A stretch of 64,000 nt of DNA from contig NZ_JANGCE010000006.1 of assembly GCF_024462775.1 (NCBI RefSeq), forward strand, positions 1 to 64,000, in the 5' to 3' direction. The translations under genes and the position numbers were made by a program. Position 1 is the stretch's first letter; each line of letters starts with the position of its first letter. This DNA is from Butyricicoccus faecihominis. Lineage in GTDB: Bacteria; Bacillota; Clostridia; Oscillospirales; Butyricicoccaceae. Below are positions 31,427-43,426 of this stretch, in pieces. Under the pieces are notes generated by a model. The model saw only the letters and a list, made by a program, of their open reading frames with translations, was not told the origin of the DNA and searched no databases.

Positions 31427-32268
31427 AACTCTATTTCCCCCTTAAATACGGTTGTCGCCGCGCCCGTCATGAACACGGTTTCGTCTGTATATCGGATCAA
31501 AAGATCGCCGCCGCGCAGGTGCACGGTGATATCGCTGTCCTTTTGCGCATGCCCGCCAAGGCAGGCCGCCACGCCGACCGCGCACGCGCCCGTGCCGCAG
31601 GCCCAGGTTTCGCCGCTGCCGCGTTCCCACACGCGCATTTTGAGCGTGCCGTCCTTTAGAACGTTCACGAACTCGGTGTTGACGCGCTCGGGGAACAGCG
31701 GATGGTGTTCAAACTTGGGGCCGATGCGGGTCAGATCCAGCGAATCGATGTCCTCCTCGCTGAAGATCACGCAGTGCGGGTTGCCCATGGAAACACAGGT
31801 GATATGGTAAACCTTTTCGTCCACGACGAGGGGAGCGTCGATCACGCGGTCGCCGTCGAGCGCGACCGGGATCAGGTCCGGCTGCAGGATCGCGGCGCCC
31901 ATATCGACTCTTGCCGTTACCGCTTTGCCGTTTTCGGTGGCGAGCCGCAGCGTTTTTACGCCGGAAAGCGTGTCCACCGTAACCGTGGTGCGGCCGTTCA
32001 CCATGCCGTTATCGTACAGGTACTTGCCGACGCAGCGGATGCCGTTGCCGCACATCTTGCCCTCCGACCCATCGGCGTTGAAGATGCGCATTTGCGCGTC
32101 CGCCTTGTCCGATGGGGAAATGAGTATGACGCCGTCGCCGCCAATGCCAAAATGCGGCTCGCTCAGCCGGACGGATAGCGCTTCCGGATCGGGCACCGTC
32201 TGGTCAAAGCAGTTGAAATAAATGTAATTGTTGCCGCAGCCGTGCATTTTGGTGAAAGCCAGCTTCAC
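31423..32268 (-). CDS. dapF: diaminopimelate epimerase
   Basis: This 281-residue enzyme converts LL- to meso-diaminopimelate. The two catalytic cysteines are seen in [10 protein letters not shown] near 73-82 and [11 protein letters not shown] near 222-232. The frame begins with a TTG at 32274, but GTG 32268 gives the canonical [15 protein letters not shown] start and sits 9 bases from AAGGAG, so I use it. It is the first gene of dapF-pyrG-dapL. A hairpin with a T-run just upstream (32288-32331) may end the ANTAR operon or attenuate this one. Confidence 0.94.
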
Positions 32269-32287
32269 GTGCAATCACTCCTTGAAC

Positions 32288-32331
32288 TAAAAAATGGCGC
32301 ATGGGCGGGTTCAAACCTGCTCATACACCAT
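32288..32331 (-). terminator. terminator or attenuator between the ANTAR gene and dapF
   Basis: Minus strand: a 16-position stem, ATGGTGTATGAGCAGG against CCCGCCCATGCGCCAT (two mismatches, two G-U), loop TTTGAA, then TTTTTT. It lies 70 bp after the ANTAR stop and 20 bp before dapF. A TATACT (plus positions 32333-32338) just upstream could be the dapF -10 box, in which case the hairpin forms at the very start of the dapF transcript. Confidence 0.7.
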
Positions 32332-32399
32332 TCAGTATATCATAAAATCGTACGAAATTCTCTATCCGGCAGAAAAAAAGACAAAAATTTTTCAGCCGT

Positions 32400-32969
32400 T
32401 CAAGCTTCGCCGTTCAAGATCGCCTCGGCGGCGGCGCGCTTGGTCTGCCGCCGGTCCATGGCGCGGCGTTCGATATAGGCGTGCGCTTCCGGTTCGGTCA
32501 TGCCGCGGCATTCGATGAGCAGGCACTTGGCGCGGTCCACCAGACGGATATCCTCGATCCGACGCAGCAGCTTGCGGTTTTCGCTTTGCAGGCCGGTCAA
32601 GCGGCTGCGCGCGGCGCGCGCCATGCGCAGCGCCTGAAAAAGCATCACGCGGTCGAGCGGCTTGGGCAGCACAAACACGCCGTCCAGTTCCACCTTTTCG
32701 CTGACCGCGTCCGATACCTCGGCGGCGGCCAGAAGGAGCACGCCCGCAAGCGTTTCATGCGCCGCGGCCTGCGCCAGTTCGTGGCCGAATTCGTCAGGCA
32801 GCGGCGTGTTGACAAAAATAAGGCTGTATTCTGTTTGGGCAAGGCCCCGGCGCGCCTCGACCCCCGAACGGGCAAGGGAAAATTCGGCCCTAACGCCGCC
32901 GCCGGTCAATACGGAGCAGAGCGCGCGATAGGCCTTATCGGCTGCGGAAACGATCAGAATGCGTTCCAA
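32400..32969 (-). CDS. ANTAR-domain RNA-binding antiterminator with degenerate receiver
   Basis: This 189-residue cytoplasmic regulator has a receiver-like fold at 1-115 (ERILIVSAADKAYRAL; conserved Lys in VLPKPLD) joined by a coiled helix (RSRLTGLQSENRKLLRRIED) to a C-terminal ANTAR domain (VDRAKCLLIECRGMTEPEAHAYIERRAM, then RQTKRAAAEAIL). The usual phosphoacceptor Asp is Asn54 (IFVNTPLPDEFG) and the acidic pair is Ser-Ala, so classical phosphorylation is unlikely. I choose TTG 32969, which follows AAGGAGGG; upstream ATG codons lack a site. It is the last gene of the glutamate synthase operon. Its likely targets are the AAAGGC hairpins at 37990, 38207 and 40440. Confidence 0.88.
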   Translation of the reverse strand: MERILIVSAADKAYRALCSVLTGGGVRAEFSLARSGVEARRGLAQTEYSLIFVNTPLPDEFGHELAQAAAHETLAGVLLLAAAEVSDAVSEKVELDGVFVLPKPLDRVMLFQALRMARAARSRLTGLQSENRKLLRRIEDIRLVDRAKCLLIECRGMTEPEAHAYIERRAMDRRQTKRAAAEAILNGEA

Positions 32970-33009
32970 CGAATGATTTCCCTCCTTCTCCATTGGGTTG
33001 GACAAAGGC

Positions 33010-34329
33010 TTAGTATCGCTCGAAATACAGCTGGCGCTCGGCTGAAAGCCGGTCGTCCGACAAGGCGATGCGGTCGTGCTCGTTTTGTTTGGCGGCGAAA
33101 AAGCTTTCCAGCGTGCGCGCGGGCAAAATGCCGCGAATAAAGTCCGATGCCTGTGCCAGCCGCACCGCGTCGCACAGCGAGGCGGGCAGGGCCTGATACC
33201 GCGCGACGACCTCGGGCGGGGCGGTAAACAGATCGATATCGCACGCGGGCGCGAGCGGCAGCTTTTCGTCGATACCGTCCAGCCCGGCGTGTATAATCAG
33301 CGCAAGCACGATATATGGATTGATGCAGCCGTCCATCGCGCGCATCTTCAGCCGGTTTGGCATGCCGTCCGCCATGAGGGGAATGGTAATGAGCGGCGAA
33401 CGGTTTTGGTGCGACCAAGTGATGTATTTGGGCGCTTCAAATTCGCCAAGGCGGGAATAGGAGTTGGTGAGCGGGCTGCCGAAAATCGTGATCTCCGCCG
33501 CGCGGCGCAGCACGCCGGCGACAAAGCTTTGCCCTTCCTTTGCTTCGGTGAAGCAGGGGTGAAACAGGTTCTTTCCGTTTTTAAAAATGGAAAGGCTCAG
33601 GTGCAGGCCGTTGCCCGGGGCGTCGGGCAGGGGCTTGGGCAAAAAGCTGGCGAATAGGCCGCTGCCCATGGCCATGGATTTGACGACTGATTTAAACGTT
33701 AAAAAGTTATCGGCGGCCTCCATGACCTCGGCGTAGCGGAAATCGATCTCATGCTGGCCGGGGCCCTGCTCGTGGTGGGAGGATTCCGGCTGGATGCCCA
33801 TTTCCTCCAGCGTCAGGCAGATCTGGCGGCGCACGTTTTCGCCGCGGTCGAGCGGCGCGATATCGAAGTATTCGCCGTGGTCGTGCGGGGTCAGCGTGGG
33901 GTGGCCGTTTTCATCCAGCTCGAACAGGTAGAATTCGCTCGCCGTGCCCATGGTGAGCGAGTAGCCCGCGCGCTGGGCGCGGCGGCAGGCGCTCCGCAGA
34001 ATTTGGCGGCCGTCGCCCTCAAAGGGCGCGCCGCTGGGATATTTGATATCGCAGTAAAACCGCACCACGCGCCCTTGGCTGGGCCGCCACGGCAGCACGG
34101 CGAGCGTGGCCGGGTCGGGGAAGAGCAGCAGGTCGGAATCGGCCACGTTGAGAAAGCCCTTGAGCGCCGCGGCGTTGAAATGGATGCCGCTTTCAAACGC
34201 GCGCGGCAGCTCCGCCGGCATGATGGCAATATTTTTCTGGTTGCCGAAGATATCGCAGAAAGCAAGGCGAATGAACTTCACATCGTTTTCCTCAATGAAC
34301 GAAATCACTTCGCTTTTGGTCTGATCCAT
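33010..34329 (-). CDS. glnA: type-I glutamine synthetase-family enzyme
   Basis: This 439-residue protein has the GS beta-grasp N-terminus (FIRLAFCDIFGNQKNI) and catalytic domain motifs ASEFYLFELDE near 130, SSHHEQGPGQHEIDFRY near 182, NGLHLSLSIF near 238 and NRSPLITIPL near 309. It joins ammonia to glutamate using ATP. No adenylylation-site motif is visible. The sequence is diverged from housekeeping GlnA, so a gamma-glutamyl-amide ligase using an amine is possible. It sits between the GXGXG glutamate synthase subunit and the ANTAR gene, which supports a nitrogen role. The neighbour glnN is an unrelated GS type. Confidence 0.88.
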   Translation of the reverse strand: MDQTKSEVISFIEENDVKFIRLAFCDIFGNQKNIAIMPAELPRAFESGIHFNAAALKGFLNVADSDLLLFPDPATLAVLPWRPSQGRVVRFYCDIKYPSGAPFEGDGRQILRSACRRAQRAGYSLTMGTASEFYLFELDENGHPTLTPHDHGEYFDIAPLDRGENVRRQICLTLEEMGIQPESSHHEQGPGQHEIDFRYAEVMEAADNFLTFKSVVKSMAMGSGLFASFLPKPLPDAPGNGLHLSLSIFKNGKNLFHPCFTEAKEGQSFVAGVLRRAAEITIFGSPLTNSYSRLGEFEAPKYITWSHQNRSPLITIPLMADGMPNRLKMRAMDGCINPYIVLALIIHAGLDGIDEKLPLAPACDIDLFTAPPEVVARYQALPASLCDAVRLAQASDFIRGILPARTLESFFAAKQNEHDRIALSDDRLSAERQLYFERY

Positions 34330-34353
34330 GGTTCCGAACCTCCTGTTTTAGCG

Positions 34354-35088
34354 CTAATTATAGGTGTAAAGCTGGTGGTAGCCCGCGTCCGGGTTGGCCG
34401 TCAGCACATAATACGTCTGGGCTTTGAGCGCCGCCGCGTCGCCGCCGAAAAAGCGGCAGTAATCGTCGATATGGGGGGCGATCTCGGCGCGGTCGGCTTC
34501 GCTTGCCTCGCGTACGAGCACTTGACGGGGCAAATCCTCTGGCACTTTATCACAGTGTAGCACAATTTTGCCCCCGTGCATACCCGTGCCGCAGAAATTG
34601 CTGACAGGATACGCGCCGCCGGCGCCTTGGCCAAGCACTAAGATCAGGCCGCCGGCCAGATACTCGCCAAGGAACGAACCGGCCCGCCCGCCGATGACGA
34701 CCGCCGGGCACTGCTCCTGATAGGCCTTCATATGGATGCCCGCGCGGTAGCCGCAGTTTCCCTTGATAAAAATGCGCCCGCCGCGCATGCCGTAGCCGCA
34801 GGTATCCCCGCAAGAGCCGTGAATGATGATATCGCCCGCGTTCATCGTGTCGCCGACGGCTTCCTGCGCGTTGCCGAACACCTCTATCGTGGAGCCGTTC
34901 AGGTACTGGCCAAGTCCGTTACCCGGCGTGCCGCGCACCGTGAGCCTTTTACCGGCGGAGCCGCAGCCGATATAACGCTGGCCCACCACCCGGTCGATCG
35001 TCAACTCGCTGTCCGGCTGCGCGCGGATCATTTCACCCAGCTCTTTATAATAGGTAAGGTTTGCAGTGATGGTCACTTTTATCAACAC
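34354..35088 (-). CDS. glutamate synthase GXGXG (alpha-subunit C-terminal) domain protein
   Basis: This 244-residue protein corresponds to the C-terminal beta-helix domain of GltB (GlxC/archaeal type). Many glycine-rich turns recur (GNGLGQYLNGS, GDTMNAGDIIIHG, GYGMRGGRIFIKGN, GSFLGEYLAGGLI). It is structural, linking the glutaminase and synthase parts. The start is uncertain: GTG 35088, TTG 35085 or GTG 35076, with AAAGGG close upstream. It is separated from the FMN subunit gene by a 200-bp heptamer-repeat element inside the operon. Confidence 0.87.
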   Translation of the reverse strand: MLIKVTITANLTYYKELGEMIRAQPDSELTIDRVVGQRYIGCGSAGKRLTVRGTPGNGLGQYLNGSTIEVFGNAQEAVGDTMNAGDIIIHGSCGDTCGYGMRGGRIFIKGNCGYRAGIHMKAYQEQCPAVVIGGRAGSFLGEYLAGGLILVLGQGAGGAYPVSNFCGTGMHGGKIVLHCDKVPEDLPRQVLVREASEADRAEIAPHIDDYCRFFGGDAAALKAQTYYVLTANPDAGYHQLYTYN

Positions 35089-35099
35089 CCTTTCGTTTA

Positions 35100-35295
35100 A
35101 TTAGGAGTTAGGAATTAGGAAGTAGGAGTTAGGAGTTAGTAATTAGTAATTAGTAATGATAGCGTCGGCAGGAGGCGTTAGAAAGGTGGAAGTTTGGGAA
35201 GCCAACCGCTTCGGTAATTAGGATTATCGGCAAAGCCGATAATCCAACTCCTAACTCCTAACTCCTCATTCCTACCTCACTCCTACCTCCTACCT
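35100..35295. repeat. heptamer-repeat element with inverted arms, inside the glutamate synthase operon
   Basis: The left arm 35100-35157 is built of degenerate TTAGGAG/TTAGTAA heptamers. The right arm about 35242-35295 has the same unit inverted (CTCCTAA, CTCCTAC). The core of about 85 bp holds a smaller palindrome GGATTATCGGC...GCCGATAATCC (35221-35244). The arms can fold into one long hairpin. No ORF is supported. Related to 13790-13915. Confidence 0.8.
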
Positions 35296-35305
35296 CATTC
35301 TTTCG

Positions 35306-36811
35306 TTATTCTCCCGCGTGCTTGATGCCGAGGATTTTAAGCTCGCGGTCGGTGAGGCCTAGGCCGCGAAGCATCAGCCGGTTGCCGCGCAGGGCTTCGA
35401 TCGAATTGATGCCCATGCCGCCCATCATTTCCTTTAGCTCATGATCCCAAGCGGTGACGAGATTCACAAGGCGCTCGCAGCCGATGTCCGGGTTCAAGCG
35501 GCGCACCAGCTCGGGCCGCTGCGTGGCGATGCCCCAGTTGCACTTGCCGGTCTGGCACGAACGGCACAGGTGGCAGCCAAGAGCGATCAGCGCGCTGGTC
35601 GCGATGTAGCAGGCGTCCGCGCCGAGCGCGATAGCCTTGACCAGATCGGCCGCGTTGCGGATCGAACCGCCCACGACGACGGATACCTGATCGCGGATAC
35701 CCTCGTCCCGCAGCCGCTGGTCAACCGCCGCGAGCGCCAGCTCGATCGGGATGCCCACGTTGTCGCGGATGCGGGTGGGCGCCGCGCCCGTGCCGCCTCG
35801 GTAGCCGTCGATACAGATCACGTCCGCGCCCGAGCGGGCCACGCCCGACGCGATCGCCGCGACATTGTGCACGGCGGCGATCTTGACCAGCACGGGCTTT
35901 TTGTATGCGGTCGCTTCTTTCAGCGAAAAGACAAGCTGGCGCAGATCCTCAATGGAATAGATATCGTGGTGCGGGGCGGGCGAGATCGCGTCCGTTCCTT
36001 CCGGGATCATGCGGGTTTTGGAGATATCCGGGCCTACCTTCAGGCCGGGCAGGTGGCCGCCGATGCCCGGCTTCGCGCCCTGACCCATCTTGATCTCGAT
36101 CGCGGCGCCCGCCTCCAGATAATCTTTATGTACGCCGAAGCGGCCGGAGGCGACCTGTACGATGGTATGGGGGCCGTATTCATAGAAATCCTCGTGCAGG
36201 CCGCCCTCGCCGGTGTTGTAATAGGTGCCGAGCGCCTTGGCGGCCCGGGCGAGCGAGGCGTGCGCGTTATAGGAGATCGAGCCGTAGCTCATCGCGGAAA
36301 ACAGGATGGGCATGTTCAGCTTAAGCTGCGGGGAGAGGTTGGGACGGATGCGCCCCTCCTCGTCGCGTTCGATCCGACCCGGCTTTTTGCCGAGAAAGGT
36401 TCTGGTCTCCATCGGCTCGCGCAGCGGGTCGATCGAAGGATTGGTGACCTGCGACGCGTTGATCAAGATCTTATCCCAGTAAATGGGGCCCCGCTCCGGG
36501 TTGCCCATGGAGGAGAGCAGCACGCCGCCCGTGCCCGCCTGCCGGTATACCTCGGAAATGGCCTTGCCGGTCCAGTTGGCGTTTTCCTTAAAGGTATGGT
36601 CGGTCTTGACGATCTTGAGCGCGCGCGTCGGGCACAGCGCGACGCAGCGGTGGCAGCAAACGCACTTGGATTCGTCCGCCGTCATGTAGCCGAAGCTGGG
36701 GTCAAAGCGGTGTACCTCGTTCGCGCACTGCCGCTCGCAGACGCGGCACGAGATGCAGCGGTCCTTGTTGCGCACGACCTCGTATTCCGGATATAAAAAA
36801 TCGATAGCCAT
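35306..36811 (-). CDS. glutamate synthase FMN/Fe-S catalytic subunit
   Basis: This 501-residue protein is the central part of glutamate synthase as a separate polypeptide. Two ferredoxin-like [4Fe-4S] motifs lie near 18-65 (CISCRVCERQC; CVCCHRCVALC). The FMN-binding TIM barrel follows (SAMSYGSISYNAH; KMGQGAKPGIGGHLPG; DGYRGGTGAAPT), with an Fe-S cysteine set in CHLCRSCQTGKC near 413-424. It makes glutamate from 2-oxoglutarate and ammonia passed from the glutaminase subunit. The ATG at 36811 has GGAGGG; the frame extends further without support. Its ATG overlaps the preceding stop (TAATG). Confidence 0.92.
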   Translation of the reverse strand: MAIDFLYPEYEVVRNKDRCISCRVCERQCANEVHRFDPSFGYMTADESKCVCCHRCVALCPTRALKIVKTDHTFKENANWTGKAISEVYRQAGTGGVLLSSMGNPERGPIYWDKILINASQVTNPSIDPLREPMETRTFLGKKPGRIERDEEGRIRPNLSPQLKLNMPILFSAMSYGSISYNAHASLARAAKALGTYYNTGEGGLHEDFYEYGPHTIVQVASGRFGVHKDYLEAGAAIEIKMGQGAKPGIGGHLPGLKVGPDISKTRMIPEGTDAISPAPHHDIYSIEDLRQLVFSLKEATAYKKPVLVKIAAVHNVAAIASGVARSGADVICIDGYRGGTGAAPTRIRDNVGIPIELALAAVDQRLRDEGIRDQVSVVVGGSIRNAADLVKAIALGADACYIATSALIALGCHLCRSCQTGKCNWGIATQRPELVRRLNPDIGCERLVNLVTAWDHELKEMMGGMGINSIEALRGNRLMLRGLGLTDRELKILGIKHAGE

Positions 36812-37908
36812 TACTGATTCCCTCCAAAGTTCAGGGTGACGATGACCGCCTCGCCGCCGCGCGGCGCACGGATCGAATCGAGTTCGGGCGAGATGCGGCG
36901 AATCGCGCACTCCTCGGATGCGATAAACACCGTTTCGTCTTTTTCGCCCACGACCATGCTGCGCAGCTTGAGCCGGTCGTTCAGCGCCATCAAGCCGCCC
37001 GTAAAGCCAACCAAAATGGAAAACGGGCCGGTCACCATCAGGGAAGCGAAGGCGTTGCGCAGATAGGTCAGGCGTTCGCGCTCAGCGGGCTCTTGCTTTT
37101 CAATGGTGGACCAGAAGGGCGCGGCGAGCACGCGGCTGACCTCTTCCAGCGTCAGCCCAACCCGGCGGCTGAGGTAGTCGACGATATAGGTGATCACCTC
37201 GGTGTCGGTCAGCAGGTCGCAGGAGTAGCCGAACATTTCAATAAACCGGCGGTTTGCATCGTAGGAAGAGATTTCGCCGTTGTGCACCACCGCCCAGTCC
37301 AGCAGGGCAAAGGGGTGCGCGCCGCCCCACCAGCCGGGGGTGTTGGTCGGGTAGCGGCCGTGGCACGTCCACGAGTAGGCTTCGTAGTTTTCCAGCATGT
37401 AATATTCGCCCACATCCTCCGGAAAGCCGGACGCTTTGAACACGCCCATATTTTTGCCGGAGGAAAAGATGTACGCGCCCGCAAGCGTATGGTTGACGCG
37501 GATGACGAAGCGGGCGACATACTCGCGCTCGTCGAGCTGGCTGGCGGCCAGCCGGGTGGGCAGTGGGGCGACAAAGTACCGCCAAATCATCGGCTCGTCC
37601 TTGATGCGGGGGTGGCGGCGGGTCGGGATCTTGGAAAGGTTGACGATATCGAAATGGCGTTCCAGCTCGCGTTCGCATTCTTCCTTGGCGGCCTGCGTAT
37701 CATAGAATACATGGAGCGCATAGTAGTCGGCGTATTCGGGGTAGATGCCGTAGCCGGCAAAGCCGCCGCCCAGTCCGTTGGAGCGGTCGTGCATCATGCG
37801 GATGGATTCTATGATACGCGCGCCGTTTTCGCGCGCGCCGTCCTTATGGAAAATGCCGGAGATCGCGCAGCCGGCCGGAATGCGTACCTGACCTTCTTTT
37901 TGCAGCAT
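36811..37908 (-). CDS. glutamate synthase class-II glutaminase subunit
   Basis: This 365-residue class-II glutamine amidotransferase is the GltB N-terminal domain as a free subunit. The catalytic Cys is probably Cys14 (IPAGCAISG), implying removal of a 13-residue leader. WTCHGRYPTNTPGWWGGAHPF near 190-210 and the VVHNGEISSYDANR motif are family hallmarks. The ATG at 37908 follows AAGGAGG; codons further upstream are leader RNA. It is the first gene of a five-gene operon behind an ANTAR-type leader. Glutamine hydrolysis here would feed ammonia to the FMN subunit. Confidence 0.9.
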   Translation of the reverse strand: MLQKEGQVRIPAGCAISGIFHKDGARENGARIIESIRMMHDRSNGLGGGFAGYGIYPEYADYYALHVFYDTQAAKEECERELERHFDIVNLSKIPTRRHPRIKDEPMIWRYFVAPLPTRLAASQLDEREYVARFVIRVNHTLAGAYIFSSGKNMGVFKASGFPEDVGEYYMLENYEAYSWTCHGRYPTNTPGWWGGAHPFALLDWAVVHNGEISSYDANRRFIEMFGYSCDLLTDTEVITYIVDYLSRRVGLTLEEVSRVLAAPFWSTIEKQEPAERERLTYLRNAFASLMVTGPFSILVGFTGGLMALNDRLKLRSMVVGEKDETVFIASEECAIRRISPELDSIRAPRGGEAVIVTLNFGGNQ

Positions 37909-37931
37909 GGGTGGTTCCTCCTTATCAAAAC

Positions 37932-37996
37932 AAAAAAGCGCCCGCCGCCCGAAAAGAACCAAACGTGCAGTTTGGCCCCTTCCGGGCAGCGGACGC
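37932..37996 (-). terminator. leader terminator of the glutamate synthase operon
   Basis: Minus strand: GCGTCCGCTGCCCG (37983-37996) pairs over 14 positions (two G-U) with CGGGCGGCGGGCGC (37938-37951), enclosing an inner CCAAAC/GTTTGG hairpin, followed by TTTTTT. It precedes the first ORF by only about 25 bp, so it must be overcome for expression. Its 5' arm shares bases with the AAAGGC hairpin. Confidence 0.88.
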
Positions 37997-38005
37997 CTTT
38001 GTCCG
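37990..38005 (-). promoter_or_regulatory. ANTAR-type hexaloop hairpin, glutamate synthase leader
   Basis: Minus strand: CGGAC-AAAGGC-GTCCG, a 5-bp stem closing a six-base loop with A at position 1 and G at position 4, the known ANTAR recognition pattern. Formation of this hairpin uses the bases that start the terminator's 5' arm. Confidence 0.75.
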
Positions 38006-38013
38006 TGTTTTTA

Positions 38014-38043
38014 ATCATAATGCATGGAAAGGGCGTTCGTCAA
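38014..38043 (-). promoter_or_regulatory. glutamate synthase operon promoter
   Basis: Minus strand: TTGACG (38038-38043), 18-bp spacer, TATGAT (38014-38019). The predicted transcript starts near 38007, right at the hexaloop hairpin. Confidence 0.65.
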
Positions 38044-38048
38044 GCGGA

Positions 38049-38062
38049 AAAAGGGCCCTTTT
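38049..38062. promoter_or_regulatory. perfect 14-bp palindrome between the divergent nitrogen promoters
   Basis: AAAAGGGCCCTTTT lies 6 bp upstream of the -35 box of the glutamate synthase operon and about 105 bp from the glnN -35, a position suited to an activator or shared regulator. The rest of 38063-38166 holds only A+T-rich sequence with small CCGG/CCCG inverted pieces. Confidence 0.45.
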
Positions 38063-38166
38063 CGCAAAGTTTTCACAAATTGCATAAAAACCGGGCGCTT
38101 CACCATGCCGGATTTACTCTCTTATCATAAAAAACGCCCGAAAACGAAAAAAATACGGGTTTTCCC

Positions 38167-38195
38167 TTGACAAAGGCGGCAGGCGAATCTATAAT
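38167..38195 (+). promoter_or_regulatory. glnN promoter
   Basis: TTGACA (38167-38172), 17 bp, TATAAT (38190-38195): an exact consensus. The predicted start is near 38202, five bases before the hexaloop hairpin. Confidence 0.85.
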
Positions 38196-38206
38196 TTAGC
38201 GTGTAA

Positions 38207-38222
38207 ACAGCAAAGGCGCTGT
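38207..38222 (+). promoter_or_regulatory. ANTAR-type hexaloop hairpin, glnN leader
   Basis: ACAGC-AAAGGC-GCTGT: a perfect 5-bp stem with the same A1/G4 hexaloop as at 37990 and 40440. Its 3' arm is shared with the following terminator. Confidence 0.78.
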
Positions 38223-38250
38223 GGGAACACGACCCGCAGCGCATTTTTTT
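38216..38250 (+). terminator. leader terminator of glnN
   Basis: GCGCTGTGGG (38216-38225) pairs with CCCGCAGCGC (38233-38242; one G-U), followed by TTTTTTT. It lies 75 bp before the glnN ATG and excludes the hexaloop hairpin. Confidence 0.88.
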
Positions 38251-38324
38251 ATTTTCCCGCATTCTTTTGGGGATCCGGGTAAATCATGACAGGTAAAGTT
38301 ACTACAGTAAGGAGCGAACCATTC

Positions 38325-40412
38325 ATGAGCACAGCAAGCAATGTACCGGAGCTGTTCGGCAGCATGGTCTTTAACGAGACCGTGATGAAGGAGCGCCTGC
38401 CCAAGGACACCTTCAAGAAGCTCAAGCAGACCATTCGGGAAGGCAAGGCGCTTGACCCCGCCGTTGCCGCGGTCGTCGCCACGGCGATGAAGGACTGGGC
38501 GATCAGCAAGGGCGCGACCCACTACACCCACTGGTTCCAGCCGATGACCGGCATCACCGCCGAGAAGCACGATTCCTTCATCTCCCCGACGGACGACGGC
38601 GGCGTGATGATGGAGTTTTCCGGCAAGGAGCTTGTGCGCGGCGAACCGGACGCATCGTCTTTCCCCTCCGGCGGCCTGCGCGCCACGTTCGAGGCGCGCG
38701 GCTACACCGCGTGGGACCCGACGAGCTACGCCTTTGTCAAGGACGGCTCACTATACATCCCGACCGCGTTCTGCTCGTACACCGGCGAAATTCTGGATAA
38801 GAAAACGCCGCTCCTACGCTCGATGGACGCGATCAGCCTGCAAGCCAGCCGCGTGCTGAAGCTGTTCGGCAAGGACGTCAAGCGCGTGACCACCACGGTC
38901 GGCCCCGAGCAGGAGTACTTCCTGATTGAAAAGAAGGATTACGCAAAGCGCAAGGATCTGATTTTTACCGGCCGCACGCTGTTCGGCGCCAAGCCGCCCA
39001 AGGGGCAGGAGATGGAGGACCATTATTTCGGTTCCATCCGTCCCCGCGTGGCCGCGTTCATGCAGGAGCTGGACGAGGAGCTTTGGAAGCTCGGCATCTT
39101 CGCCAAGACCAAGCACAACGAGGTGGCGCCGTCCCAGCACGAAATGGCCCCGGTGTTCACCACCACCAATATTGCGACCGACCATAACCAGCTGACGATG
39201 GAGGTCATGAAGCGCGTCGCGCAGAAGCACGGCTTCATCTGCCTGATGCACGAAAAGCCGTTTGACGGCGTCAACGGTTCGGGCAAGCACAACAACTGGT
39301 CGCTTTCGACGGACGAGGGCGAAAATCTGCTCGAGCCCGGCAAGACCCCGCACGAAAACGCGCAGTTCCTGCTGTTCCTAACCGCCGTGATCAAGGCTGT
39401 GGATGAGTTTCAGGATCTGCTGCGTATCTCGGTGGCGAACGCGGGCAACGATCACCGTCTGGGCGCGGATGAAGCGCCTCCGGCCATCGTTTCCATGTTC
39501 ATCGGCGACGAATTGCAGGGTATTCTGGACGCGATCGTCTCCGGCGCCGATTACACCGATGTGGAAAAGACCAAGATGGACCTCGGCGTCGCCGTGCTGC
39601 CCGATATCCCGAAGGACACGACCGACCGCAACCGTACCTCGCCCTTTGCCTTTACCGGCAACAAATTCGAGTTCCGCATGCTGGGTTCGTCCTTTAATAT
39701 CGCGTGCGCCAATATCATGATCAACACCGCCGTGGCGGAGGAGCTGCGCGTATTCTGCGACGAGCTGGAAAAGGCCGAGGACTTCGACAGCGCGCTGTCC
39801 GCGCTGATCCGCCGCGAAATCAAAAAGCACGAACGCATCATCTTCAACGGCAACGGCTATGACGAAGCTTGGGTGGTCGAAGCGGAAAAGCGCGGCCTGT
39901 CCAATTTCCGTTCGACGGACGAAGCGCTGCCGCACTACACGGATGAGAAAAACCTGAAGCTGTTCGCGCAGCACAACGTTTATACCCGCGCGGAGATGGA
40001 AAGCCGCGAGGAGACCCTGCTTGAGGAGTACGCCAAGACGCTGCACATCGAAGCGCTCACCATGATCGAAATGATCCGGCAGGAGATCGTGCCCGCGTGC
40101 CTTGCATACGAGCAGAGCGTGGCCAAGACCGCGCGCCTCAAGCAGGATATCGGCGTAACGGGCGGTATGGAAGCCAAATTGGTTGCCGAGCTTTCGTCCC
40201 TGATCGAAACGCTTTCCAGCCATTGCGACGCGCTGGACGAGGCGGTGGCCTCGGCGCCCAAGGGCTCGGCGGAGCAGAGCGCCCATTACTACCACGACGC
40301 CGTCATTCCCGCGATGGAAGCCGCGCGTAAACCGGCGGACGCGCTGGAATGTCTGGTCGCTAAGAAGGGCTGGCCGTTCCCGACCTATTCCGACATTCTC
40401 TTCTACGTTTGA
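38325..40412 (+). CDS. glnN: glutamine synthetase type III
   Basis: This 695-residue enzyme is of the GSIII family, dodecameric and much longer than GSI. Features seen are the N-terminal [17 protein letters not shown], a block with [28 protein letters not shown] near 195, [16 protein letters not shown] near 265 and [19 protein letters not shown] near 308, all GSIII catalytic signatures. I choose the ATG at 38325 (AAGGAG, 9-base spacing) over 38286. It is controlled by an attenuator leader with an ANTAR hairpin. amt follows in the same direction. Confidence 0.96.
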
Positions 40413-40439
40413 TCGCACAGCGGAAAAACTGAATGACCC

Positions 40440-40457
40440 GTACACAAAGGCGTGTAT
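40440..40457 (+). promoter_or_regulatory. ANTAR-type hexaloop hairpin, amt leader
   Basis: TACAC-AAAGGC-GTGTA (40441-40456), extendable by a G-U pair, with the same loop as the other two sites. I see no good promoter between glnN and here, so the amt transcript may be read-through from glnN. Confidence 0.75.
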
Positions 40458-40496
40458 TTTCCCCGTAAAAGGCGGGGAGAATACACGCCTTTTTAA
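40448..40496 (+). terminator. leader/intergenic terminator before amt
   Basis: An 18-bp stem, 40448-40465 against 40473-40490 (one G-U), loop TAAAAGG, then TTTTTAAATTT. The base of the stem shares AGGCGTGTA with the hexaloop hairpin. Confidence 0.9.
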
Positions 40497-40519
40497 ATTT
40501 TAAGGGGGTACATGACAAA

Positions 40520-42247
40520 ATGGACATCACTATGTTGGCAGGCGCGCTTGACACCGGTTGGATTCTGCTCGGCGCGGCGCTCGTTTTCTTTATGCAGGCG
40601 GGCTTTGCAATGGTAGAAACGGGCTTTACCCGCGCCAAGAACGCGGGCAATATCATCATGAAGAACCTGATGGATTTTTCCCTCGGCACGCCGATCTTTT
40701 GGCTGCTTGGCTTTGGCATTATGTTCGGTTCGGCAAGCGGCGTTTTCGGCGGCTTTGATTTTCTGGCCGACGGCGTTGTGGGCGAGGGACACAGCTGGTC
40801 CACGCTGATCTTTCAGACCGTGTTCTGCGCGACCGCCGCGACCATCGTGTCGGGCGCGATGGCGGAACGCACCAAGTTTTCCGCTTACTGCATTTACTCC
40901 ATGGTCATTTCGGCTCTGATCTATCCGATCTCGGGCCACTGGATCTGGGGCGGCGGCTGGCTGGCCGAACTGGGCTTCCATGATTTCGCGGGTTCCGCCG
41001 CGGTGCATATGGTGGGCGGCGTCGCGGCGTTTGTCGGCGCGCTGATTCTCGGCCCCCGTATCGGCAAGTACGCGAAGAGCGGCAAGGCGCGCGCGATTCC
41101 CGGCCACTCGCTCACACTGGGCGCGCTCGGCGTATTTATCCTATGGTTCTGCTGGTTCGGGTTTAACGGCTGTTCCACGGTGGCCCTTTCGGGCGGCGCG
41201 GCCGAGACCGCGGCCCGTGTGTTCGTCACCACCAACCTTGCCGCCGCGGTTTCTACGGTAACGGTAATGTGCATCACGTGGCTGCGCTATAAGAAGCCCG
41301 ATGTCTCCATGACGCTGAACGGCTCGCTGGCTGGCTTGGTCGCGATCACCGCGGGCTGCGACGCCGTAACGCCGGTGGGCGCGGCGGTCATCGGCATCGT
41401 GGCAGGTTTTGTCGTGGTGTTCGGCATTGAATTGATCGACCAGAAGGTCAAGGTAGACGACCCGGTCGGCGCGGTCGGCGTGCACGGCCTATGCGGCGCG
41501 ACCGGCACGCTGCTGACCGGCCTGCTGGCCTACTACCTGACGGACGACGCGGGCGCGCCGCTCGGCCTATTCTACGGCGGCGGCTTCCGCTTCTTCGGCG
41601 TTCAGGTGCTCGGCGTCGTCGCGGTCATCGCGTGGGTTGCCGTCACGATGACCATCGTGTTCCAGCTCATCAAGCACACCATCGGTCTGCGCGTTTCCAC
41701 GGCGGAGGAGGTCATGGGTCTTGACCAGCCCGAGCACGGCCTCGTTTCCGCCTACGCGGATTTTATGCCGGTCGTTCCGCAGGTGCTGGGCACCAAGGCG
41801 GGCGAAATGCAGGCCGTGCAGGCCGCGGGCGCGCCGGTGGCGGTCGAGCACGCGGTGCCCGTTACCAGAGTGACGGACGAAGCGGGCGCGCACAAGCTGT
41901 CCAAGGTCGTCATCGTTACCAAGCAGTCCAAGTTTGAAGCGCTCAGGGACGCGCTGAGCCAGATCGGCGTATCCGGCATGACCGTGGCGAACGTCATCGG
42001 CTGCGGCGTGCAGAAGGGCGCGACCGAGTATTACCGCGGCGCCGAGGTGGATGTGAACCTGCTGCCCAAGATCAAGATGGAGGTCGTCGTGTCCGCCGTG
42101 CCGGTCGAGACCGTTGTGGAAACGGCCAAGGCGGTCCTGTATACCGGACACATCGGCGACGGTAAGATCTTTGTTTACAACGTGGAAAACGTCATCAAGG
42201 TGCGCACCGGCGCGGAGGGCTTCGACGCGCTGCAGGACGATGAATAA
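40520..42247 (+). CDS. amt: ammonium transporter fused to a PII signalling domain
   Basis: This 575-residue membrane protein has an Amt channel of about 11 helices at 1-410 (MQAGFAMVETGFTRAKN; GGWLAELGFHDFAGSAAVHMVGG; FNGCSTVAL). After a linker comes a complete PII (GlnB/GlnK) domain from about 457. The PII part has T-loop Tyr residues in EYYRGAEVD and the C-terminal GDGKIFVYNVENVIKVRTG signature. The fusion would place the PII plug on its channel permanently. GGGGG lies 11 bases from the ATG at 40520; another ATG at 40512 is out of frame. It lies behind an ANTAR-type attenuator. Confidence 0.93.
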   Translation: MDITMLAGALDTGWILLGAALVFFMQAGFAMVETGFTRAKNAGNIIMKNLMDFSLGTPIFWLLGFGIMFGSASGVFGGFDFLADGVVGEGHSWSTLIFQTVFCATAATIVSGAMAERTKFSAYCIYSMVISALIYPISGHWIWGGGWLAELGFHDFAGSAAVHMVGGVAAFVGALILGPRIGKYAKSGKARAIPGHSLTLGALGVFILWFCWFGFNGCSTVALSGGAAETAARVFVTTNLAAAVSTVTVMCITWLRYKKPDVSMTLNGSLAGLVAITAGCDAVTPVGAAVIGIVAGFVVVFGIELIDQKVKVDDPVGAVGVHGLCGATGTLLTGLLAYYLTDDAGAPLGLFYGGGFRFFGVQVLGVVAVIAWVAVTMTIVFQLIKHTIGLRVSTAEEVMGLDQPEHGLVSAYADFMPVVPQVLGTKAGEMQAVQAAGAPVAVEHAVPVTRVTDEAGAHKLSKVVIVTKQSKFEALRDALSQIGVSGMTVANVIGCGVQKGATEYYRGAEVDVNLLPKIKMEVVVSAVPVETVVETAKAVLYTGHIGDGKIFVYNVENVIKVRTGAEGFDALQDDE

Positions 42248-42296
42248 TATCGCCGCCTCCTAACCACCTTCTTATCCTTATCTTTATTATCCCTCG

Positions 42297-42340
42297 CAAA
42301 AAGCGCCTTCCGGATATTTGATCCGGAGGGCGCTTTTGTG
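42297..42340 (+). terminator. terminator of amt
   Basis: AAAAGCGCCTTCCGGAT pairs with ATCCGGAGGGCGCTTTT (one G-U). Confidence 0.85.
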
Positions 42341-42349
42341 CATTGGGGA

Positions 42350-42378
42350 TTGCGCATCGACCGGCGGTGCATTATAAT
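42350..42378 (+). promoter_or_regulatory. apbE operon promoter
   Basis: TTGCGC (42350-42355), 17 bp, TATAAT (42373-42378), 35 bp before the apbE ATG. Confidence 0.65.
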
Positions 42379-42412
42379 AAGTGAGGAAAACCATCAGACC
42401 GGGAGATACTAT

Positions 42413-43426
42413 ATGAAACGACTTGCAGCGGCCGTTTTGCCGCTTTTACTGCTTTGTGGGTGCGCGCCCAAGGAATATTCGACGGACTTTTTCGCGATGG
42501 ATACCTTCATGTCGGTCACCGTGCTGGGGGAGACGGGGCAAGACGCCGCCCGGCAGTGCGAACGGCGGGTAAACGAGCTGGAAGGCCTGCTGTCCCGCAC
42601 ACGCAGCGGGGAAAACAACGCAAAGGCGAGCGCGGTCTATTTGATCAACCACGCCCCGTCAGGCACCGGCATGGTTGATGAGGGCGGCTATATTCAAACG
42701 GCCAAGGCGCTTTCGGAACAAACAAACGGTCTGTTCGATCCCACGACCGCCCGGTTGACCGATCTATGGGGCATCGGCACGGACGAACCCCGCGTGCCCG
42801 CGCAAAGCGAGATAGACGAGGCGCTTTTGACCGTTGGCGCGGCCAACATTGTAGTCGATCAAAACAGCGGCTTTGTTTCGCTGGCGGGCGGCGCGCAGCT
42901 CGACCTTGGCGGTATCGCCAAGGGCATCGCGGCGGATGAATGCGCCGCCATTTTGCGGGAAGCGGATGCGTCCGGTCTGCTGATGCTGGGCGGCAATATC
43001 TACGCGGTCGGATCGAATAACGGCAAGCCGTGGCGGATCGGCATAGCCGACCCGGATAACAACGTGGAATATATCGCGACCGTGGCGGTGGAGGACCGAT
43101 CAGTCGTTACCTCGGGCGATTATGAACGTTATTTCGAGCAGGACGGCAAGCGGTATCACCACATCTTCGACCCGCGCACCGGATACCCGGCGGAAAGCGG
43201 ACTGCGCGGCGTGACCGTGATCGATGAAAATTCGACCCGGGCGGATGCGTTCACGACCGCCCTGTTCGTGATGGGGCTGGAGGACGGCATGGCTTTTTGT
43301 GAGGCGAACGGCGTCGCGGCGGTGTTCATCACATCGGACAAGCGGGTCTACACCACGCCCGCGGTGGCAAAGGCGTGCACCTTTACCTTTGACGGAGAAG
43401 ACAAGGGCTATACCTATGCGCAGTAA
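42413..43426 (+). CDS. apbE: FAD:protein FMN transferase, lipoprotein
   Basis: This 337-residue enzyme attaches FMN covalently to Thr/Ser of target flavoproteins such as RnfG/NqrC-type subunits. The lipoprotein signal MKRLAAAVLPLLLLCGC has its lipid Cys near 17. ApbE motifs DLGGIAKGIAAD near 165 and the Mg-binding Asp/Thr region ENSTRADAFTTALFVMG follow. The ATG at 42413 has GGGAG. It overlaps the NusG-II gene by 11 bp. No RnfG-like target gene is in the window. Confidence 0.92.
   Translation: MKRLAAAVLPLLLLCGCAPKEYSTDFFAMDTFMSVTVLGETGQDAARQCERRVNELEGLLSRTRSGENNAKASAVYLINHAPSGTGMVDEGGYIQTAKALSEQTNGLFDPTTARLTDLWGIGTDEPRVPAQSEIDEALLTVGAANIVVDQNSGFVSLAGGAQLDLGGIAKGIAADECAAILREADASGLLMLGGNIYAVGSNNGKPWRIGIADPDNNVEYIATVAVEDRSVVTSGDYERYFEQDGKRYHHIFDPRTGYPAESGLRGVTVIDENSTRADAFTTALFVMGLEDGMAFCEANGVAAVFITSDKRVYTTPAVAKACTFTFDGEDKGYTYAQ

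Follow-up and report, generated by a model that had tools for sequence, protein, structure and literature searches.

A single-hexaloop leader before the glutamate synthase operon of Butyricicoccus faecihominis, predicted to act as an ANTAR antitermination switch shared with other ammonium-assimilation genes

Exploring a 64,000-nucleotide stretch of Butyricicoccus faecihominis DNA (the window), we found that the leader of its glutamate synthase operon carries one AAAGGC hexaloop hairpin overlapping an intrinsic terminator. Based on sequence comparison, we propose, with a probability of roughly 0.8, that this leader is an ANTAR antitermination switch with positive feedback that operates with a single hexaloop and belongs to a NitR regulon shared with the genes of glutamine synthetase type III (GSIII) and of an ammonium transporter fused to a P-II domain (amtB-PII). 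By default, the nascent RNA would fold into the strong terminator and transcription would stop about 45-65 nt after its predicted start. An active NitR-like ANTAR protein, probably under nitrogen limitation, would capture the single 5'-terminal AAAGGC hexaloop and keep the GGC of the loop and the 3' arm from the terminator, letting polymerase continue into the structural genes. With nitR among these genes, positive feedback would follow, and the same NitR would open the GSIII and amtB sites, so that three sites would govern glutamate synthase, glnA and nitR on the minus strand and GSIII and amtB-PII on the plus strand as one small, compact ammonium-assimilation regulon (Table 1). We infer in this scheme where transcription begins, that NitR binds and allows read-through, that nitrogen provides the signal, and that NitR is controlled by a binding partner and not by phosphorylation.

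Table 1. Positions of genes and leader elements in the window
Feature	Position	Strand	Source
NitR-like ANTAR protein gene, 189 aa	32400..32969	minus	Pfam ANTAR 1.3e-14
glnA, glutamine synthetase	33010..34329	minus	Pfam Gln-synt_C, Gln-synt_N
GXGXG-domain gene, split glutamate synthase	34354..35088	minus	Pfam GXGXG
Glutamate synthase FMN/Fe-S domain gene, start approximate	35306..36820	minus	Pfam Glu_synthase, Fer4_7
Glutamate synthase glutaminase-domain (GATase) gene, first after leader	36811..37908	minus	Pfam GATase_2
Intrinsic terminator of glutamate synthase leader, starting inside hexaloop; U6 at 37937-37932	37932..37999	minus	fold of 38007-37930
Single hexaloop (putative antiterminator) hairpin: CGGAC 38005-38001, loop AAAGGC 38000-37995, GTCCG 37994-37990	37990..38005	minus	
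Predicted promoter of glutamate synthase operon: TTGACG 38043-38038, 18 nt, TATGAT 38019-38014	38014..38043	minus	promoter scan
Predicted promoter of divergent GSIII gene: TTGACA, 17 nt, TATAAT; 12/12	38167..38195	plus	promoter scan
Second single hexaloop hairpin ACAGC[AAAGGC]GCTGT, GSIII leader	38207..38222	plus	window scans, fold
Terminator with U tract, overlapping second hexaloop; -20.4 kcal/mol, z -4.2	38216..38250	plus	fold
GSIII, glutamine synthetase type III	38286..40412	plus	Pfam GSIII_N
Third single hexaloop hairpin GTACAC[AAAGGC]GTGTAT, GSIII-amtB gap	40440..40457	plus	looser scan, fold
Terminator with U tract, overlapping third hexaloop; -36.9 kcal/mol, z -9.0	40446..40494	plus	fold
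amtB-PII, ammonium transporter fused to P-II domain	40520..42247	plus	Pfam Ammonium_transp, P-II

The promoter-like TTGACG/18/TATGAT and the CGGAC-AAAGGC-GTCCG hairpin that the initial annotation had reported upstream of the first gene are both present on the minus strand where it placed them, the former being recovered by a promoter scan that yielded 7 promoter-like sites in 32000-42600 versus a mean of 3.1 in shuffles; the spacing between TATGAT and the hairpin is 8 nt. The terminator indeed ends in six U before the first gene, 23 nt 5' of the ATG at 37908, but its stem, described in the annotation as having 14 positions, folds with ~30 contiguous pairs. Folding of nt 38007-37930, a check that the annotation had proposed, gave -55.8 kcal/mol versus -27.3 +/- 3.0 in shuffles (z = -9.5), revealing a strong terminator that overlaps the hexaloop hairpin; the isolated hairpin folds at -6.4 kcal/mol, as 2 of 200 shuffles do equally well, and the terminator alone at -52 kcal/mol. 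The fold bore out that the 3' arm of the hexaloop serves as the 5' arm of the terminator and added the GGC of the loop to it. Given that loop GGC and hairpin 3' arm together form the base of the terminator stem, the two folds are mutually exclusive, and given that the terminator outweighs the hexaloop, the default of the leader should be OFF. Searching Rfam at the gathering threshold returned 0 matches in the whole window; two Rfam matches in 37800-40600 were both chance-level, and the loci of six relatives returned just a tRNA.

The annotation was right to single out the glutamate synthase leader as a likely ANTAR target but overlooked two more sites, before GSIII and before amtB. The AAAGGC loop is identical at all three sites, which lie within 2.5 kb; their terminators range from -20 to -52 kcal/mol and the hexaloops alone from about -5 to -6.4 kcal/mol. 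The amtB unit, in the 107-nt gap that follows GSIII, is presumably read on from the GSIII transcript and has a single hexaloop too. When the whole window was scanned strictly for A1/G4 hexaloops with an overlapping terminator, three matches emerged, including the glutamate synthase and GSIII leaders, and a looser scan of both strands gave nine, three of them the AAAGGC units before nitrogen genes and six with other loops.

The genome-wide scan that had also been proposed was run as two pattern scans of the 3.69-Mb genome, covering stems other than those with U-A or C-G as second pair, and returned 38 and 57 rows against 47 and 47 in the controls, with many duplicate rows. We inspected the 60 rows with loci, equal to 68 motif places, and folded 23 strings of the 35 rows without loci; the remaining 12 strings comprised three one-base repeats of folded ones and nine left unfolded. 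Among these places only the three window sites joined a stem of at least 4 bp to a perfect overlapping terminator, while a loose energy cut let through six further places in the loci and six more strings. The nearest other candidate, C8:64031-64063, has a clean 8-bp terminator with U6 and a weak AAGGGC hexaloop (3-bp stem, two G-U pairs) shortly 5' of an ORF. A place with an 11-bp hexaloop stem (L279) was rejected as a further unit for want of a proper terminator, and a simpler pattern, CAANGGYG...TTT, was discarded since it gave 66 matches versus 65 in the reversed control and missed two of the three known sites.

To see how widely the unit occurs, we collected the loci of the ANTAR protein's relatives, with records from Agathobaculum, Butyricicoccus and many other Clostridia. 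The looser scan of 97 loci (L070-L084, L086, L087, L090 and L091 were left out as contigs already included) detected a hexaloop-terminator unit before 42/43 gltB-GATase, 38/44 GSIII, 24/27 amtB and 6/88 glnA genes, counts that are not independent because many rows are close relatives; the glnA genes of the relatives are mostly inside the operon. The stricter scan detected units before 37/43, 36/44, 22/27 and 6/88 of the same genes, respectively, and before none of the internal genes (0/45 gltB2, 0/54 GXGXG, 0/93 ANTAR), and in shuffled leaders of the relatives it found a unit in 1/565. One of the 38 GSIII units (L106) was false by inspection, lying inside the upstream asnA gene. Among the GSIII misses, one locus lacks leader DNA (L105), one has GSIII after coding DNA (L143), two show a shorter-stem unit visible by eye (L123, L140), and in three (L057, L113, L134) GSIII follows an asnA-like gene with the unit 5' of that gene. 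The looser scan found no unit at the amtB genes of L062-L064. Within 20 loci of more distant families, 14 carry a unit before gltB, GSIII, glnA or amtB and it is absent from 6.

Two features of these loci are worth recording in their own right. In L057, L106, L113 and L134 a unit stands 5' of an asnA-like gene that is followed by GSIII; the gene of L113, the one tested by Pfam, is AsnA, aspartate-ammonia ligase, and such units may also control ammonia-dependent asparagine synthesis. Two complete single-hairpin units stand in tandem before GSIII in L064 (5414-5486, minus strand) and, by eye, in L310.

The presence of the unit follows that of ANTAR genes. Of 81 genomes with a NitR match at E<=1e-20, 34 contain the GSIII-type 16-mer, versus 12 of the 212 without (Fisher p 8e-13); the reversed 16-mer pattern, used as a control, is found in 4 of 293 genomes of the class. 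When GSIII leaders were compared in 40 + 40 genomes, the uppermost entries of the GSIII listing with one GSIII copy each, the unit was present in 32/40 NitR genomes and in 10/40 without NitR at the same threshold (p 1.4e-6); one of the 32 positives is probably spurious (L306, 592 nt away), and a hexaloop can be made out by eye in several of the 8 leaders scored as lacking the unit. Eight of the 10 NitR-negative genomes with the unit have a weaker or other ANTAR match and two have none, and splitting the genomes by any ANTAR match, a split chosen after seeing the data, gave the unit in 40/53 versus 2/27. The annotation had also pointed to an ANTAR gene within the controlled operon, and this proved general: nitR lies downstream on the same strand, at most 9 kb away, in 47/48 gltB or glnA leaders, indicating that the feedback arrangement is conserved.

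The 189-residue ANTAR protein was modelled with a pLDDT of 95 as a receiver followed by a long helix and two further ANTAR helices, and the top structures returned by Foldseek were Rv1626, EutV and AmiR, the predicted fold matching RNA-bound EutV (6ww6) with a TM of 0.79. The window protein and 106/113 relatives have Asn in place of the phospho-acceptor Asp, which makes this domain a pseudo-receiver, unlike the phosphorylated REC-ANTAR type of EutV, and the NitR-like protein, judged from its sequence, is probably not controlled by phosphorylation. Of the EutV RNA contacts, K149, E160 and M172 are invariant throughout the NitR family (113/113), the position of Tyr164 is His in 113/113 and also in AmiR, and most members have other residues at R142, R168 and R177 (R142 being Ile, Leu or Met in 101/113); the RNA-binding core thus appears to be retained with family-specific changes. 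Since glnA is directly 5' of nitR, glutamine synthetase or the fused P-II domain is a candidate sensor. The NitR relatives of Treponema/Spirochaetaceae (L129, L142, L144, L145, L148) adjoin glnA and keep the phospho-acceptor Asp; no convincing hexaloop-terminator unit was found in these five loci.

That nitR is one of four ANTAR genes in the genome raises the alternative, unlikely in our estimate, that the hexaloops are recognised by another of the genome's ANTAR proteins, of which there are three, or by NitR only when complexed with glutamine synthetase or P-II. Eight of the 10 NitR-negative genomes carrying the unit would fit the former, having another ANTAR match, and the latter accords with the pseudo-receiver of NitR, given that AmiR, likewise with a pseudo-receiver, is described in PMC8934654 as regulated by AmiC binding, as well as with the position of glnA directly before nitR both here and in the five spirochaete relatives. 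Nevertheless, it is the NitR-like gene that accompanies the leaders (47/48). The stretches read around the three other ANTAR genes (L067-L069, contigs C4 and C11) held no AANGRY hexaloop unit.

The initial annotation had noted that only one hexaloop was visible and considered this unusual; we too see one, but the lone hexaloop is no oddity, as it recurs across Clostridia. According to PMC3369931, deletion of P1 from the EutV leader abolished induction and both hexaloops were needed, and Walshe et al. (PMC8934654) assign P1 the role of a recruitment hairpin for EutV, given the short time available, find that the dimer binds one hexaloop at a time, and count what single hexaloops do among the questions still to be answered. 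The dual-hexaloop motif of Ramesh et al., two hairpins with a short linker, does not recur in the present units, a second hexaloop being found at about background: an upstream A1/G4 hexaloop with a stem of at least 3 bp precedes 8/110 units versus 6.0% in shuffled upstream sequence, and one with a stem of at least 4 bp precedes 3/110 versus 2.5%; in the more distant families it precedes two of 24 units. Promoter-like sites precede 40/42 gltB and 36/38 GSIII units versus 4/24 amtB units, the last being background, and the distance from the end of the -10-like box to the hairpin is mostly 6-8 nt (gltB; median 7) or 11 nt (GSIII). With the predicted +1 set at 7 nt after the -10 box, the hairpin would start at about +2 (gltB) or +6 (GSIII) and the U tract would lie at +65 or +45 (medians), so that, if the promoters are right, a hairpin at the 5' tip leaves no room for a recruitment hairpin.

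These figures bear on the possibility, which we regard as very unlikely, that the leaders are dual-hexaloop targets with a first hairpin that has degenerated or that belongs to RNA initiated farther upstream, leaving the EutV model intact. The characterised antitermination leaders (eut, nas, ami) do have two hexaloops according to PMC3369931, the amtB site does have transcribed RNA upstream, with a weak TTG[ATCGCA]CAG 19 nt before the hairpin, and L099 has a 5-bp hexaloop 22 nt before its amtB unit; yet neither the background frequency of upstream hexaloops at both stem lengths nor the short distance from the -10-like box in gltB and GSIII leaders agrees with a hidden partner. As a positive control for the detection of two hexaloops, we used 30 eutP loci found by Pfam PF10662; strict scans of these yielded nothing convincing and a relaxed scan yielded four rows, one place (L194) looking like a clear dual motif. 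Because this control is weak, the case against a P1 relies on the shuffle comparison and the promoter distance.

The loop of the single hexaloop is mostly AANGRY across the relatives: in a scan requiring A1 and G4 alone, position 2 is A in 96/99 non-duplicate units while position 3 varies (A 64, T 18, C 10, G 7), and in a scan allowing A or G at position 1 and requiring A2 and G4, position 1 is A in 101/102 distinct units. The GSIII leader of L098 has GAAGGC, with G for A at position 1 and the rest of the unit intact. The stems vary by gene and lineage (GGAC/GTCC, GAAC/GTTC, ACAGC/GCTGT, ACAC/GTGT, AAGGC/GTCTT, CGGC/GCCG), and within a gene class the pairs change and stay paired, e.g. pair 3 of gltB is A-U in 25, G-C in 16 and G-U in 1 (n=42). 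Re-dealing the arms reached the observed pairing in 0, 0 and 1 of 500 trials for gltB, GSIII and amtB, a test that is partly circular because units were pre-filtered for a 4-bp stem, with pairs 1-4 paired by construction; in the six glnA rows pairing was not above that of re-dealt arms (217/500). When the stem filter was removed, pairing was above the re-dealt control with the register of AAAGGC repeats often wrong, and we do not use it as main evidence. That the leader is an ordinary attenuator or insulating terminator, its hexaloop being a by-product of the 5' arm that binds no protein, would suit the very strong terminators with their U tracts but is the least probable alternative, since the 5' arm of the hexaloop lies outside the terminator stem and yet co-varies with the 3' arm, A2 of the loop is kept while position 3 varies, and the unit tracks ANTAR genes across genomes.

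Together, the comparative data support the ANTAR antitermination reading that the initial annotation had put forward: the hexaloop is kept while its stems vary, it excludes the terminator, it is linked to ANTAR genes, and it recurs before gltB, GSIII and amtB while the internal genes of these operons lack it. Weighing against this reading are the need of the studied EutV leader for both hexaloops, the units in NitR-negative genomes, the distant and spirochaete loci that show no convincing unit, the three other ANTAR genes that could act, the replaced EutV contacts, and the glnA rows with no excess of pairing. In the window, the elements expected of ANTAR antitermination are found side by side, namely a linked ANTAR gene, an A1/G4 hexaloop on a stem of at least 3 bp and an overlapping, mutually exclusive terminator. 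So is the NitR-type arrangement, an ANTAR gene clustered with GS/GOGAT genes under a predicted antitermination leader, which also holds for 47/48 leaders of the loci compared. According to PMC6316151, the GS/GOGAT genes of Clostridium saccharobutylicum are induced through antitermination by NitR when nitrogen is limiting, and by that description (see also PMC4676874) and by its gene cluster this NitR is likened to the present protein. NitR antitermination of GS/GOGAT and predicted ANTAR targets on glutamate synthase have both been described before (PMC6316151, PMC3369931), and the original NitR paper (Stutz et al. 2007) may describe such leaders.

In comparison with the EutV/eut leaders of Enterococcus faecalis, as described in PMC3369931 and PMC8934654, the present system shares the ANTAR domain, the A1/G4 hexaloop and the terminator overlap; the former, however, has two hexaloops, a critical linker and a phosphorylated receiver, whereas the present leader has a lone hexaloop at the predicted 5' tip and its ANTAR protein a pseudo-receiver with Asn. 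AmiR of Pseudomonas aeruginosa shares the pseudo-receiver and ANTAR with the NitR-like protein, as well as His at the EutV Tyr164 position, but the amiE leader has two hexaloops (PMC3369931) and AmiR is regulated by AmiC. The ANTAR regulons predicted in PMC3369931 include glutamate synthase in Desulfotomaculum reducens and nitrogen genes in D. acetoxidans; these are the same nitrogen targets, found by a two-hairpin covariance model requiring two stems, which the single-hexaloop motif used here would escape. Hexaloops likewise without a partner are mentioned in PMC8934654, namely an extra single hexaloop in EutX RNA and mycobacterial stem-loops that are not always a dual motif, but these are associated there with sequestration or with overlap of ribosome binding sites and 5'-UTRs, and are not presented as terminator leaders with one hexaloop. 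Our search of open-licence papers found no single-hexaloop terminator leaders.

The best reading of the sequences is that antitermination here would work as in EutV, NasR and AmiR, minus the recruitment hairpin that EutV needs. Going further, we lean, with less confidence than for the leader itself, towards a distinct ANTAR class in clostridial ammonium assimilation, in which a 5'-tip hexaloop and one NitR dimer would suffice within ~45-65 nt, with neither recruitment hairpin nor phosphorylation. If so, the two-hairpin rule would characterise the eut, nas and ami systems rather than ANTAR antitermination, and a whole single-hexaloop class would have gone unnoticed in two-hairpin searches. The relatives provide a large conserved set of natural leaders that apparently work with one hexaloop, suggesting that a 5'-tip hairpin, or a tighter-binding protein, can replace P1, and that many Clostridia follow a common regulatory logic in ammonium assimilation. 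Because their geometry is short and well defined, the question of single hexaloops becomes directly testable.

Two observations concern the body of the operon. In 32275-32400, 3' of nitR, the promoter/terminator scan gave no hit on the minus strand and a U-rich run has no clear hairpin; the operon may end at nitR or continue into dapF. Between gltB2 and the GXGXG gene, at 35095-35305, lies a ~210-bp inverted-repeat element of TAGGAGT-like repeats, whose arms of 33 nt are 88% complementary and which has ~60 partial matches elsewhere in the genome.
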